Assembly: GCF_023015985.1 (NCBI RefSeq)
Contig: NZ_JALKAO010000002.1
Location: 682,001-746,000 of the forward strand
DNA length: 64,000 nt
Reading direction: 5' to 3'
DNA from: Marivita sp. S6314
GTDB taxonomy: Bacteria; Pseudomonadota; Alphaproteobacteria; Rhodobacterales; Rhodobacteraceae
Every line of letters begins with the position of its first letter. Position 1 is the stretch's first letter. Under the pieces are notes generated by a model. It was given only the letters and a program-made list of their open reading frames with translations, ran no database searches and had not been told where the DNA came from. The position numbers and the translations under genes are program-made. Of this stretch, positions 51,613 to 55,603 are shown piece by piece.

Positions 51613-52806
51613 TCAGACCAACGCGTCGGCAATCCGCGCTGCCAATTGCCGCGCCACCGCATCCTTGCCCATGCGCGGCCAGCCCTCCGCGCCGCTGTCC
51701 GAAATCACCGTAACCGCGTTTTCGGATCCCCCCATGATGCCCGTGGCAGGCGACACATCATTCGCCACGATCCAGTCACAGCCCTTGCGCTGACGCTTGG
51801 CCGTCGCATTGGCCACCACATCATCCGTCTCGGCCGCAAATCCAACAACCAGTCCGGGGCGTCCGTCTGCCATCTGCGACACCTCCGCCAGAATGTCGGG
51901 GTTTTCCTCGAACGACAGGGTCGGCAACTGCCCCGCCTGTTTCTTGATCTTGCTGTCCGAGGCACCCACAACTTTCCAATCCGCCACGGCGGCCGCAAAC
52001 ACCGCCGCGTCCGCAGGCAGCGCCGCATGCACGGCGTCGCGCATCTGCTGCGCCGTCTCCACGGGCACCACCTCGACGCCGTCAGGCGGCGACACCTCGG
52101 CCGGACCGGTGACAAACACCACCTCGGCCCCCAACGCCCGCAACGCCGCCGCAATCGCTGTACCCTGCGCCCCGGACGACCGGTTTGCGATGTACCGCAC
52201 CGGGTCAATCGGCTCATGGGTCGGCCCCGAGGTCACAACGATCCGCTTGCCCGACAACGGCCCCGCCGCCACCGCGCCGATCACCGCGTCGACAATCTCC
52301 AGCGGTTCCGCCATGCGCCCCGGCCCAAACTCGCCACAGGCCATGTCACCGTCATTCGGCCCGACCACCGCCACACCATCCCCGCGCAACACCGCCAGAT
52401 TGCGTTGCGTCGCCGGATGCTCCCACATCCGCACATTCATCGCCGGGGCCATCATCACCGGCGTATCGGTCGCCAAAAGCAAGGTTGTCGCCATGTCGCT
52501 GGCAAACCCATTGGCCATCTTCGCCATCAGATCCGCCGTCGCCGGGGCCACAAGCACCAGGTCCGCCACCCGCGACAGCTGGATATGCCCCATCTCGGCC
52601 TCGTCGGTCAGATCAAACAGATCGGTATAGACCTTTTCACCAGCCAATGCCGACACCGACAACGGTGTCACAAATTCGCCCGCAGCCCGCGTCATCACCG
52701 GCGTCACCGCCGCGCCGCGCTCTTTCAGACGCCGGATCAGATCAAGGCACTTATACGCCGCGATCCCGCCGCCGATGATCAGTAACACACGCTTGCCGCT
52801 TAGCAT
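51613..52806 (-). CDS. coaBC: Bifunctional phosphopantothenoylcysteine decarboxylase / phosphopantothenate-cysteine ligase
   Basis: A 397-residue fused enzyme of coenzyme A synthesis. The N-terminal CoaC half has G-G-G-I-A-A-Y-K near residue 12, the P-A-M-N-V-R-M-W motif and the catalytic Cys in M-A-C-G-E-F-G near residue 154. The CoaB half has S-G-P-T-H-E-P-I-D-P-V-R, N-R-S-S-G and the A-A-V-A-D-W-K motif. The start at 52806 begins right at the flavoprotein fold; the frame's upstream extension has no support. Confidence 0.96.
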   Translation of the reverse strand: MLSGKRVLLIIGGGIAAYKCLDLIRRLKERGAAVTPVMTRAAGEFVTPLSVSALAGEKVYTDLFDLTDEAEMGHIQLSRVADLVLVAPATADLMAKMANGFASDMATTLLLATDTPVMMAPAMNVRMWEHPATQRNLAVLRGDGVAVVGPNDGDMACGEFGPGRMAEPLEIVDAVIGAVAAGPLSGKRIVVTSGPTHEPIDPVRYIANRSSGAQGTAIAAALRALGAEVVFVTGPAEVSPPDGVEVVPVETAQQMRDAVHAALPADAAVFAAAVADWKVVGASDSKIKKQAGQLPTLSFEENPDILAEVSQMADGRPGLVVGFAAETDDVVANATAKRQRKGCDWIVANDVSPATGIMGGSENAVTVISDSGAEGWPRMGKDAVARQLAARIADALV

Positions 52807-52866
52807 AAGGCCCGCCCCAGGTTGTTGCCTGCCCCAAGTGTTACGAGCCTGCCCGGGAAAACTCAA

Positions 52867-53649
52867 TCAACGGAACGCCTCACAGGGATCCCCGCGGTCA
52901 GCCGGCGGCGATGTTTCAACCAGATCAAACGCGCCCAGCGGCGCCCCCGCGCCGTCCTCGGCCTGCCCCAATGCGGCAATCCGCACCCCGGGCGCCGCCT
53001 CCATCAGGTAAACCGGTGCGCCCCAATCAAGGCGGGCATGCCCGTTGCCCGTGATCACCACCACCGGCCCGCCATAAGCCTCGAATGCCTGAACCGCGGA
53101 ATAGGCCAACTCCGCATCCCGCAACCGCTGGATATCCACCATCAACGGCAACATCTCCTGCGGCATCGCATCGCAATGGGCCGACAATTGCAGCGCCTCT
53201 CGGGTCGCCTGCTGGTCTTCGGGCAAGGGGGTGGTCAGACCATAACGCGCGCCATCCCCGCGAAACGCCGCCACAACACCGGTCTCCATGACACCCTTCG
53301 CCGTCTCACGCGGAACCGCCGCACCAAACACCGCCGCCTCCGGGGCGGCTGCAAAAATCGGATAATACATCGAAAAATCCGGCCAGCCGCTGTCAGCCCA
53401 GCCCAGCGCGGCCTCCAAAGCCACCTCATCCGCCACCAGGTCCGGCGTCACAAGATTCGCCTGCGCCTGCGTCAGCATCTCGAACACCAGCGCCGTCGGC
53501 TGCAACGCCACGACATAGTCCGCCTGTCGCGCATGATGTCCGGGGTTGTCATGCAGCTCCCCCAGGAACACCACATCCGCCCCATCAAAAACGCCCCCAG
53601 CGGTCAGAACCGTGGGGGCGCAGGCCAGAACAAAAACTAAATGCTTCAT
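52867..53649 (-). CDS. ChaN-like heme-binding/Tiki-superfamily protein
   Basis: A 260-residue protein of the ChaN/EreA-like group, linked to heme-iron uptake in other bacteria. It has F-L-G-E-L-H-D-N-P-G-H-H near residue 30, V-F-E-M-L, R-L-R-D-A-E-L-A-Y near 180, and I-T-G-N-G-H-A-R near 200, all family landmarks. The N-terminal MKHLVFVLACAP looks like a very short export or lipoprotein signal (L-A-C), shorter than usual, so mode of export is unclear. It overlaps the rpoH stop by ATGA and is cotranslated with that sigma factor. Confidence 0.82.
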   Translation of the reverse strand: MKHLVFVLACAPTVLTAGGVFDGADVVFLGELHDNPGHHARQADYVVALQPTALVFEMLTQAQANLVTPDLVADEVALEAALGWADSGWPDFSMYYPIFAAAPEAAVFGAAVPRETAKGVMETGVVAAFRGDGARYGLTTPLPEDQQATREALQLSAHCDAMPQEMLPLMVDIQRLRDAELAYSAVQAFEAYGGPVVVITGNGHARLDWGAPVYLMEAAPGVRIAALGQAEDGAGAPLGAFDLVETSPPADRGDPCEAFR

Positions 53650-54524
53650 GCGAGGAAGTGATGCACCTCTGGGCTCTGGGCTTCAAGCGACTTCCGGATT
53701 TTCTGGAACGCCGCCGCCTCAAGCTGGCGCACCCGCTCTTTTGACAAGCCCAACTCGTTGCCAAGGCTTTCCAGCGTCCGCGCATCTTCCCGCAGCTTGC
53801 GTTCACGCACGATAAACCGTTCGCGCTCATTCAGCTGGTTCATCGCCATCAACAGCCACTGACGCAACTGCGCGAGATCCATGTCTTCTTCGACCATCTC
53901 TTCGGCCTGCGCGCTGTCATCCTCCAGCGCATCAATCCACTCACGGCCCTCATCTTCGGTCGATTGCGTCGCGTTCAGCGAATAATCCGACCCGGACAAG
54001 CGGCCTTCCATCATCTCCACGTCATGCAGCGGCACACCGATCTCTTCCGAGATCAAACGCCTCATCTCGTGCCCTTCCAGCTTCTTGCCTTCGGCCGCCG
54101 CTTCCCGCTCCAGCCGCGCCTGAACCCGGCGCATGTTGAAAAACAGAGATTTCTGCGAAGATGTGGACCCGGTGCGCACAATCGACCAGTTCCGCATCAC
54201 GTAATCCTGAATCGACGCCTTGATCCACCACACGGCATAGGTCGAAAAGCGGACGCCACGATCCGGGTCGAACTTGTCCGCCGCCTTCATCAGGCCCAGA
54301 CCCGCTTCCTGGATCAAATCATTCATCGGCGCGCCGTAACGCTTGAACTTGGACGCCATCGAAATGGCCAATCGCATATACGCGGTGATCAAACGGTGCA
54401 GCGCGGCCTCGTCCCGTTCGTCGCGCCAGGCATAGGCCAGCTTCAGTTCGGTTTCCGCATCCAGAAGCTCTGCCTTCATCGCGCGGCGTGACAAGGTTTG
54501 GTCGTTAAAAGCGTCGAGTGCCAT
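53646..54524 (-). CDS. rpoH: RNA polymerase sigma-32 type factor (RpoH, probably RpoHII)
   Basis: A 292-residue group 3 sigma factor. Region 2 has L-I-Q-E-A-G-L-G-L-M-K-A-A-D-K-F-D-P and F-S-T-Y-A-V-W-W-I-K-A-S-I-Q-D-Y-V (about residues 70-120); the RpoH-type box near 130-140 reads S-Q-K-S-L-F-F-N-M-R-R; region 4 ends L-G-L-S-K-E-R-V-R-Q-L-E. An RpoE-like promoter precedes it, which matches RpoHII, the sigma factor of singlet-oxygen response in Rhodobacter sphaeroides. The start at 54524 follows GGGGGCAC. Confidence 0.93.
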   Translation of the reverse strand: MALDAFNDQTLSRRAMKAELLDAETELKLAYAWRDERDEAALHRLITAYMRLAISMASKFKRYGAPMNDLIQEAGLGLMKAADKFDPDRGVRFSTYAVWWIKASIQDYVMRNWSIVRTGSTSSQKSLFFNMRRVQARLEREAAAEGKKLEGHEMRRLISEEIGVPLHDVEMMEGRLSGSDYSLNATQSTEDEGREWIDALEDDSAQAEEMVEEDMDLAQLRQWLLMAMNQLNERERFIVRERKLREDARTLESLGNELGLSKERVRQLEAAAFQKIRKSLEAQSPEVHHFLA

Positions 54525-54553
54525 CTGTGCCCCCAGTCTTGATCCCTCGTACT

Positions 54554-54582
54554 GTCTACGGGGCACCCACAAGGCTGGATCA
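54554..54582 (-). promoter_or_regulatory. RpoE (ECF sigma)-like promoter of rpoH
   Basis: On the minus strand TGATCC (54582-54577), a 17-base spacer, then GTAGAC (54559-54554), about 30 bases before the ATG. TGATCC is the known -35 element recognised by R. sphaeroides RpoE, which transcribes rpoHII there. The -10 match is weaker. Confidence 0.65.
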
Positions 54583-54675
54583 AAAATTTATCTCCAAAAC
54601 ATGAATAGCGCGCAGGCTGCATAAAAAGCCCTGACATAAATGCCGATCCGTGATCGGCAACCGCACAATTCTCAA

Positions 54676-54705
54676 TTGGGCGTTTCGCGGTCTTCACACT
54701 AGGCT
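54676..54705 (+). promoter_or_regulatory. Predicted promoter of the GST-YHS-like gene
   Basis: TTGGGC (54676-54681), an 18-base spacer, then TAGGCT (54700-54705), 31 bases before the ATG at 54737. Same -10 sequence as the promoter at 11273-11300. Confidence 0.45.
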
Positions 54706-54736
54706 AACCCAACACGAACAGAAACCGGGACACGAC

Positions 54737-55603
54737 ATGACCTACGACCTCTATATCGGCGATTTCGCATATTCGAGCTGGTCTCTGCGTGGCTGGCTCC
54801 TGTTCCGCCACCTGGGCCTCAAACCCAACCTGCATCTCGTCGATTTCAGCACCTCCAGCGTCGCGGACCAAATTCCCGACATGGCCCCCGCCAGAACCGT
54901 GCCCTGCATGCGCACCCCCGAAGGCACCCCGGTCTGGGAATCCCTGGCCATGGCCGAAGAACTGCACGACCGTCACCCCGATGGCGGCCTCTGGCCCTCC
55001 GATCCCACCGCCCGCGCCCTGGGCCGCGCCCTTGCCGCCGAAATGAACGCAGGCTTTTCCGCCCTGCGCACCGAATGCCCGATGAACCTGCGCACCGCCT
55101 ACCGCGCCGTCGACCTGTCCGACGACACCCGGGCCGACATTGCCCGCATCGAAAAAATCTGGAGCTTTGCCCGCAACAAATACGCCGACCAGGGCCCATG
55201 GCTGCTCGGCACCTACTCCATCGCCGACATCGCTTATGCCCCGGTGGCGGCGCGGTTCGCCGGTTATGACGTGGCCCTGTCCGATACAGCACAAGCCTAT
55301 GTCGACACCCACCTGAACGACACGATGTTCCGCCAATGGCGCACCATGTCACTGGTCACCGGAAAAACCCTGCCATGGTATGCCAAACCCTTTGACACCA
55401 AACCCTGGCCCGGCCCAACGCCACAGCCCGCGAAACCGGTCGAAACCGGCCCGTCGGTCAACGCAACCTGCCCGTTCACCGGCGGCACGCCTGCATGGTT
55501 CCTTGAATACAAAGGCCAAATCTACGGCTTTGAAAACAAGCTCTGCCGCGATGAAACCGTCCAAGACCCCGAGGCCTGGCCCGCCTTCATCGCCATCACC
55601 TAA
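54737..55603 (+). CDS. Glutathione S-transferase with C-terminal YHS-like domain
   Basis: A 288-residue protein. The N-terminal GST domain opens Y-I-G-D-F-A-Y-S-S-W-S-L-R-G-W and has the anchoring T-V-P-C-M-R and W-E-S-L-A-M-A-E-E. The helical C-domain runs to ~215. After a Pro-rich linker (P-W-P-G-P-T-P-Q-P-A-K-P) comes a ~45-residue tail with T-C-P-F-T-G-G, Y-K-G-Q-I-Y-G-F, L-C-R-D and D-P-E-A-W-P-A-F, which looks like a YHS/TRASH metal-binding module. It is divergent from rpoH. Redox or metal sensing together with glutathione is inference. Confidence 0.82.
   Translation: MTYDLYIGDFAYSSWSLRGWLLFRHLGLKPNLHLVDFSTSSVADQIPDMAPARTVPCMRTPEGTPVWESLAMAEELHDRHPDGGLWPSDPTARALGRALAAEMNAGFSALRTECPMNLRTAYRAVDLSDDTRADIARIEKIWSFARNKYADQGPWLLGTYSIADIAYAPVAARFAGYDVALSDTAQAYVDTHLNDTMFRQWRTMSLVTGKTLPWYAKPFDTKPWPGPTPQPAKPVETGPSVNATCPFTGGTPAWFLEYKGQIYGFENKLCRDETVQDPEAWPAFIAIT

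Follow-up and report, generated by a model that had tools for sequence, protein, structure and literature searches.

The rpoHII gene of Marivita sp. S6314 raises the question of which sigma factor starts its transcription and whether the gene thereby forms the second tier of a photooxidative stress response. It was analysed in a stretch of 64,000 nucleotides, here called the window, together with the rest of the genome and the corresponding loci of relatives. The gene occupies positions 53646..54524 of the minus strand and encodes a sigma-32 protein of 292 residues in which Pfam sigma-70 regions 2 and 4 are both matched. The product reaches 452.9 bits against NCBIfam NF005693 (cut-off 315), which we take to be the rpoH2 model, but only 272 bits against TIGR02392, under the cut-off of 323, while the other RpoH of the genome (RpoHI, at C11) scores 369 bits against TIGR02392 and exceeds that cut-off. 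The window's rpoH is therefore assigned to the RpoH2/RpoHII type and not to RpoHI. A mechanical open reading frame with an earlier TTG start (54572) was set aside in favour of the ATG at 54524, from whose residue 1 all of the best 80 relative loci match.

A promoter-like arrangement precedes this ATG on the minus strand, consisting of a -35 element TGATCC of RpoE (ECF11) type (54577..54582), a 17-base spacer (54560..54576) whose last base, C, completes a CGTA core, and a -10 element GTAGAC (54554..54559). The preliminary description had reported TGATCC, 17 bases and GTAGAC at 30 bases before rpoH; the arrangement was confirmed on the minus strand, and the distance from GTAGAC to the ATG is 29 bases. 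The leader between the -10 element and the ATG (54525..54553, minus strand) carries a G-rich stretch, GGGGG, as the likely ribosome-binding site, and a G-rich stretch 5' of the ATG was common in relatives when inspected by eye. The promoter elements and the spacing of 17 are identical to those of the autoregulated rpoE promoter, the mark taken here of an RpoE-dependent promoter.

The start of a gene for a ChaN-like haem-binding protein (52867..53649, minus strand; PF04187, 136.8 bits) overlaps the stop codon of rpoHII by 4 bases, and the next gene is coaBC (51613..52866, minus strand; TIGR00521, 405 bits); therefore the promoter probably serves an operon. The ChaN-like gene, which has a tblastn match on the same strand as rpoHII in 68 of the 81 loci compared (window included; some loci are incomplete), is probably co-transcribed with rpoHII, and coaBC lies on the rpoHII strand in 80 of the 81. 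On the other side, a divergent glutathione S-transferase-like gene (54737..55603, plus strand; PF13409, 46 bits) occupies the strand opposite rpoHII in 64 of the 81 loci, the window again included.

Several other features of the intergenic region were considered. A dyad, TGCCGATCACGGATCGGCA, lies at 54641-54659 (minus strand) between rpoHII and the glutathione S-transferase gene that diverges from it, is followed by TTTATG and is called terminator-like by the scan; a similar string, ATCACGGATCGTGAT, was seen by eye upstream of rpoHII in one relative (L055). The dyad is a possible operator or weak terminator. TGATCC also reads on the plus strand at 54540-54545; this copy is absent by eye from the two nearest relatives (L014 and L015) and looks accidental. 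The inverted TTGATCC/GGATCAA pair in the window was rejected as an operator, since L014 and L015 do not keep the pair. A T-rich tract upstream of the -35 element was likewise rejected as a new element, for in many relatives it is, by eye, the 5' end of a divergent gene, presumably cobU-like.

The RpoE-type site and its co-occurrence with RpoE-ChrR

Judged within the window only, the motif carries little weight and is not significant. A single TGATCC-N17/18-GTA match was found in the 64-kb window against 0.20 expected, and at least one such match appeared in 18 of 100 shuffles of the window. The comparison was extended to the best 80 rpoHII loci (L014-L093) among 585 relatives, in which more such loci exist. 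One locus with only 40 upstream bases (L043) was dropped, and 79 relatives together with the window gave 80 upstream regions of 200 bases each. TGATCC-N17-GTA is found exactly in 36 of these regions and TGAACC-N17-GTA exactly in 24, so that 60 of the 80 carry an exact match at spacer 17, with none at spacers 15, 16, 18 or 19. When up to one mismatch is allowed, 71 of the 80 regions match at spacer 17, and only 2, 3, 0 and 2 regions match at spacers 15, 16, 18 and 19, respectively. Dinucleotide shuffles of the upstream regions (20 sets) gave a mean of 1.7 matching regions and a maximum of 5, and of 5,137 other 200-base tiles taken from these loci, 172 contain the site at one mismatch and 3 an exact copy.

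The aligned core reads TGA(T/A)CC, a purine and then CGTA, with the C in 69 of the 71 sites and GTA in all 71; the GAC that follows GTA in the window is not conserved. The 71 sites include single-letter variants such as TAAACC in L050 and TGAACA in L067. Because the site is conserved across relatives at the fixed spacing of 17 (71 of 80, against a shuffle mean of 1.7), it is not a product of chance. A chance resemblance, with rpoHII transcribed from another promoter, would agree with the shuffles of the window, but in view of this conservation at one spacing, and of a simple consensus scan that found no sigma-70-like promoter in 54450-54800, it is highly improbable.

The preliminary description had named the lack of an rpoE-chrR pair in the genome as a finding that would tell against it; the pair is present. 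The genome holds one ChrR above the family cut-off (TIGR02451, 224.5 bits), and the sigma gene directly before chrR matches R. sphaeroides RpoE (PDB 2q1z) with 258 bits. ChrR aligns with PDB 2z2s over residues 1-201 of 213 (242 bits), the rpoE and chrR frames are adjacent, and the motif HISLCDEC was read in ChrR, so that the N-terminal zinc motif and the C-terminal cupin of an ECF11 pair are both found. The genome's own rpoE is preceded by TGATCC-N17-GTA. Genes for an amine oxidase, a DUF1365 protein, an MFS_2 transporter, a DUF3833 protein and a short-chain dehydrogenase (SDR) lie beside rpoE, and this operon agrees with RSP_1091-1087 of R. sphaeroides as far as the products are described in passages of the source (PMC7074977). 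Furthermore, two reaction-centre proteins are encoded in the genome (PF00124, 346 and 336 bits), which makes singlet oxygen produced by photosynthesis a plausible signal.

A search for other TGATCC promoters, also suggested at the outset, returned 10 genomic occurrences of TGATCC-N16-CGTA and none of the reversed pattern. The occurrences include those of rpoHII and rpoE; two lie just 5' of short frames (L211 and L213), five fall inside long coding-looking frames according to our reading of mechanical frames, and L207 is ambiguous. At L211:1501-1923, TGATCC-N17-GTA stands about 35 bases 5' of a 120-residue frame that is secreted-looking, has no Pfam match and sits, by eye, downstream of a dapB-like frame; this frame is a candidate for a further RpoE target in the genome. 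At L213:1349-1526 (minus strand), the same pattern stands about 20 bases 5' of a 43-codon frame (by eye) with a 429-codon frame beyond, which is likewise a candidate RpoE target.

The site upstream of rpoHII was then compared with the occurrence of ChrR. ChrR exceeds the cut-off in all 25 genomes of the TGAACC group (the 24 exact matches and L050), in all 35 of the TGATCC group and in 13 of the remaining 20. With L043 left out and the window added, 73 genomes have ChrR and 71 of them carry the site, which is lacking from all 7 genomes without ChrR (Fisher 1.1e-8). The seven ChrR-less genomes are those of five Loktanella, Palleronia aestuarii and the genome of L042. Their best RpoE match does not exceed 35% identity, whereas five ChrR-bearing genomes included in the same search reach 50-73%; rpoE is thus missing from the seven as well. 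In L042, CGAGAC follows GGAACTTTCTT, at the place where L074 has TGATCC. The two ChrR-bearing genomes without the site, L051 and L086, have the most divergent RpoE of the five searched (56 and 50%).

On the rpoHII gene tree, the absence of rpoE-chrR amounts to only two losses. An independent-pairs test of the site against ChrR was not significant and had no power, and a simulation of site evolution on the same tree gave P=0.002 for the association. The tree is built from rpoHII as a single gene, with 9 of its 77 inner branches starred, and some of the genomes are MAGs.

From these comparisons, the site in the window is very probably the promoter at which RNA polymerase carrying RpoE (ECF11) starts the rpoHII operon. 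The proposal that the window contains the second tier of a photooxidative stress response is supported by the rpoE-chrR pair with the same promoter, the RpoH2 type of the gene product, the reaction-centre genes and the tracking of ChrR by the site. The feature may be regarded, with good support, as an ordinary member of the known cascade from RpoE to RpoHII. If the circuit works as it does in R. sphaeroides, ChrR would hold RpoE inactive, and singlet oxygen would lead to the loss of ChrR and the release of RpoE. The freed RpoE would transcribe its own gene and rpoHII, and RpoHII would then transcribe a large second-tier regulon.

EcfG-type sites upstream of rpoHII in relatives

Strings resembling GGAAC-N16-CGTT, which we take to be the EcfG consensus, were first spotted while the RpoE-less genomes were being read. 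The consensus was checked at nepR, where 27 of the 30 loci inspected by eye (the best 30 NepR matches) have an exact copy just upstream, in either orientation. An exact copy is also seen by eye upstream of nepR in the window's genome. At L217:2830-2900 of that genome, nepR-ecfG and phyR diverge from a common region in which, by eye, each strand has copies of the EcfG consensus.

At rpoHII, an EcfG-type site was defined as GGAAC-N16/17-CGTT with at most one mismatch in the 150 upstream bases, a threshold chosen after the first look. All seven RpoE-less genomes have such a site (shuffle mean 0.15), as do 20 of the 73 others (shuffle mean 3.0), and 18 of these 20 also have the RpoE site. In 13 of the 18 double-site regions, the EcfG -35 element starts exactly 11 bases before the RpoE -35 element and the spacer is 17; one more region has it 10 bases before. 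Because of this placement, the EcfG CGTT falls inside the RpoE spacer. The other four regions have the EcfG site at offsets of -58, -69, -50 and +6, and a second match in L059 is at +33.

The occurrence of these sites was compared with that of EcfG itself. NepR is present in 62 of the 80 genomes, and a search for EcfG agrees with it genome for genome, the best match being at least 53% identical in the 62, and at most 35% identical, or lacking at E 1e-15, in the 18 NepR-less genomes. The EcfG-type site is found in 27 of the 62 genomes with EcfG-NepR and in none of the 18 without (one-sided P=1.8e-4), and upstream lengths of 120, 200 and 250 bases gave 25, 27 and 31 of 62, against 0 of 18 each time. 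None of 359 letter-permuted motifs reached either the P value or the region number of the EcfG motif (most 19, median 2). On the opposite strand, the motif matched 6 and 1 regions with and without EcfG, and for spacers of 14-15 and 18-19 the numbers of matching regions were 3 and 0. In simulations on the gene tree, 1,018 of 6,000 runs were kept, and in none of these was the number of EcfG-type sites among the 18 genomes so low. Exact matches alone gave 5 against 0 (P=0.27) and are too few, and the independent-pairs test of the EcfG site against EcfG was without power, the two such tests having between them 2 to 4 starred contrasts. When only the interleaved place was scored in the 71 regions with an RpoE site, one mismatch gave 14 against 0 (P=0.015), two mismatches gave 18 against 1 (P=0.028; the exception is L049) and three mismatches gave 18 against 3 (P=0.24), so the association weakens with laxer matching.

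Since the EcfG-type site occurs in 27 of 62 genomes with EcfG-NepR, including all seven that lack RpoE, and in 0 of 18 without, rpoHII looks ancestrally double-wired. Based on this distribution, a model is favoured, with some reserve, in which rpoHII of the Rhodobacterales was ancestrally the meeting point of two stress systems. EcfG and RpoE promoters would have been interleaved on the same 50 bases with their holoenzymes competing for a single site, and each half would have been lost with its sigma system, so that the RpoE-less Loktanella and Palleronia keep the EcfG half only and EcfG-less genomes the RpoE half only. The same region in the wider family would thus probably once have borne an interleaved EcfG promoter that the window's lineage lost or weakened, leaving the RpoE half together with, at most, a decayed remnant of the EcfG half.

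In the window, the best EcfG-like string within 300 bases upstream is GGATC-N16-CTTT (54625..54649, minus strand), which has two mismatches where at most one was allowed and is probably not functional. A main role of EcfG, the general stress response sigma factor, in driving rpoHII in the window too would be in keeping with the EcfG-NepR-PhyR locus of the same genome and with the EcfG-type sites of some relatives. Among the nearest of these, 58 bases before TGATCC, L015 has an exact GGAAC-N16-CGTT and L014 has GGAGC-N16-CGTC (by eye). Such a role is nevertheless unlikely, as the window combines this two-mismatch string with a perfect RpoE site. With a perfect RpoE promoter and so poor an EcfG string, rpoHII in the window is thus predicted to answer RpoE, and EcfG weakly or not at all.

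Forms of the -35 element

The two forms of the rpoHII -35 element, TGATCC and TGAACC, were compared with the promoter of rpoE in the same genomes. Across 70 rpoE-chrR loci, which include none for 5 of the 35 TGATCC-group genomes and two from one genome, the rpoE promoter reads TGATCC-N17-GTA in 68 and has TGATCT in 2. A -35 preference of RpoE that co-diverged with the TGAACC form was rejected, for the rpoE promoter of the 24 TGAACC relatives (e.g., L052 and L027) is still TGATCC in 22 and is TGATCT in 2. Nor is TGAACC a genome-wide alternative class of promoter, with 402 TGAACC-N17-GTA strings against 392 of the reversed pattern in the 25 genomes of the group. The presence of EcfG-NepR shows no association with TGAACC either (NepR is missing from 7 of 25 and from 11 of 36). 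The T/A letter of the rpoHII -35 element changes 8 times on the best gene tree, of which the starred branches force only 2.

The TGAACC form in the 24 relatives might instead be read by another sigma factor, the cascade being re-wired there. This reading accords with the retention of TGATCC or TGATCT at rpoE in those same genomes, with the GAAC that TGAACC has in common with the EcfG -35 element, and with the finding that no interleaved EcfG site accompanies an A-type -35 element (0 of 26, compared with 19 of 45, when two mismatches are allowed; P=4e-5). It is opposed by the 7 of 25 TGAACC-group genomes that have neither NepR nor an EcfG match above 35% identity, by the unchanged spacer and CGTA of the TGAACC promoters, and by the lack of enrichment of TGAACC-N17-GTA in the 25 genomes just given. 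On balance, re-wiring in these relatives is doubtful.

Another departure from the consensus is seen next to rpoE. For the divergent operon beside it, the best site is NCATCC-N17-GTA in 38 of 70 loci (GCATCC in 15, TCATCC in 14, ACATCC in 9); the window's genome has GCATCC, and in several other loci the best string is poor. The rpoE-chrR loci (e.g., L009:700-820) show back-to-back RpoE-type promoters, with -35 elements that commonly start about 28 bases apart. The recurrent NCATCC form perhaps sets promoter strength at the divergent operon.

Relation to known sigma-factor circuits

At the level of sequence, a Marivita-like phototroph and 70 further rpoHII promoters can be added to the singlet-oxygen sigma cascade, and the comparison offers a natural experiment in the acquisition and loss of inputs by a second-tier sigma gene. 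The window's own site fits the known cascade; what is of additional interest is the double-wired promoter proposed for its relatives. If the interleaving of EcfG and RpoE promoters is true, the general stress response and the photooxidative response would be linked directly and in a way that can be tested. In the titles and opening abstract lines searched, with most subscription journals outside, no description of interleaved EcfG and RpoE promoters at rpoHII was found.

The control of rpoHII by RpoE in R. sphaeroides is reportedly treated by Anthony (2005) and Nuss (2009). It is given as established in passages of later papers (PMC3441632, PMC6852236), and RpoE, RpoHI and RpoHII are stated to be conserved in marine aerobic phototrophs in a passage of another (PMC4373377). 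The window's genome shares with the ECF11 system of R. sphaeroides, in which RpoE-ChrR acts on rpoHII, the rpoE-chrR pair, an operon like RSP_1087-1091, TGATCC before both rpoE and rpoHII, a second RpoH and a phototrophic genome, the likeness here being one of sequence. The RpoE promoter quoted for Pos19 in a passage of PMC5036791, TGATCC(N15)GCGTA, has the same geometry as the site in the window, and the window itself showed no difference from the R. sphaeroides system.

In Rhizobiales, rpoH2 is placed under sigma-24, according to passages of a study whose promoter analysis is restricted to that order (PMC4843759). This control, of sigma-24 type (EcfG/RpoE4), has the same target as the EcfG-type sites of the relatives studied here. 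The Rhodobacterales relatives differ from it in that their EcfG-type site is often interleaved with an RpoE site, while that of the window is absent or degraded. An effect of PhyR on RpoE in R. sphaeroides, as described in passages of PMC5830050, is likewise a cross-talk between the general stress and singlet-oxygen systems. In that case, PhyR acts on the level and activity of RpoE, whereas the proposed tandem promoter would act directly at rpoHII.
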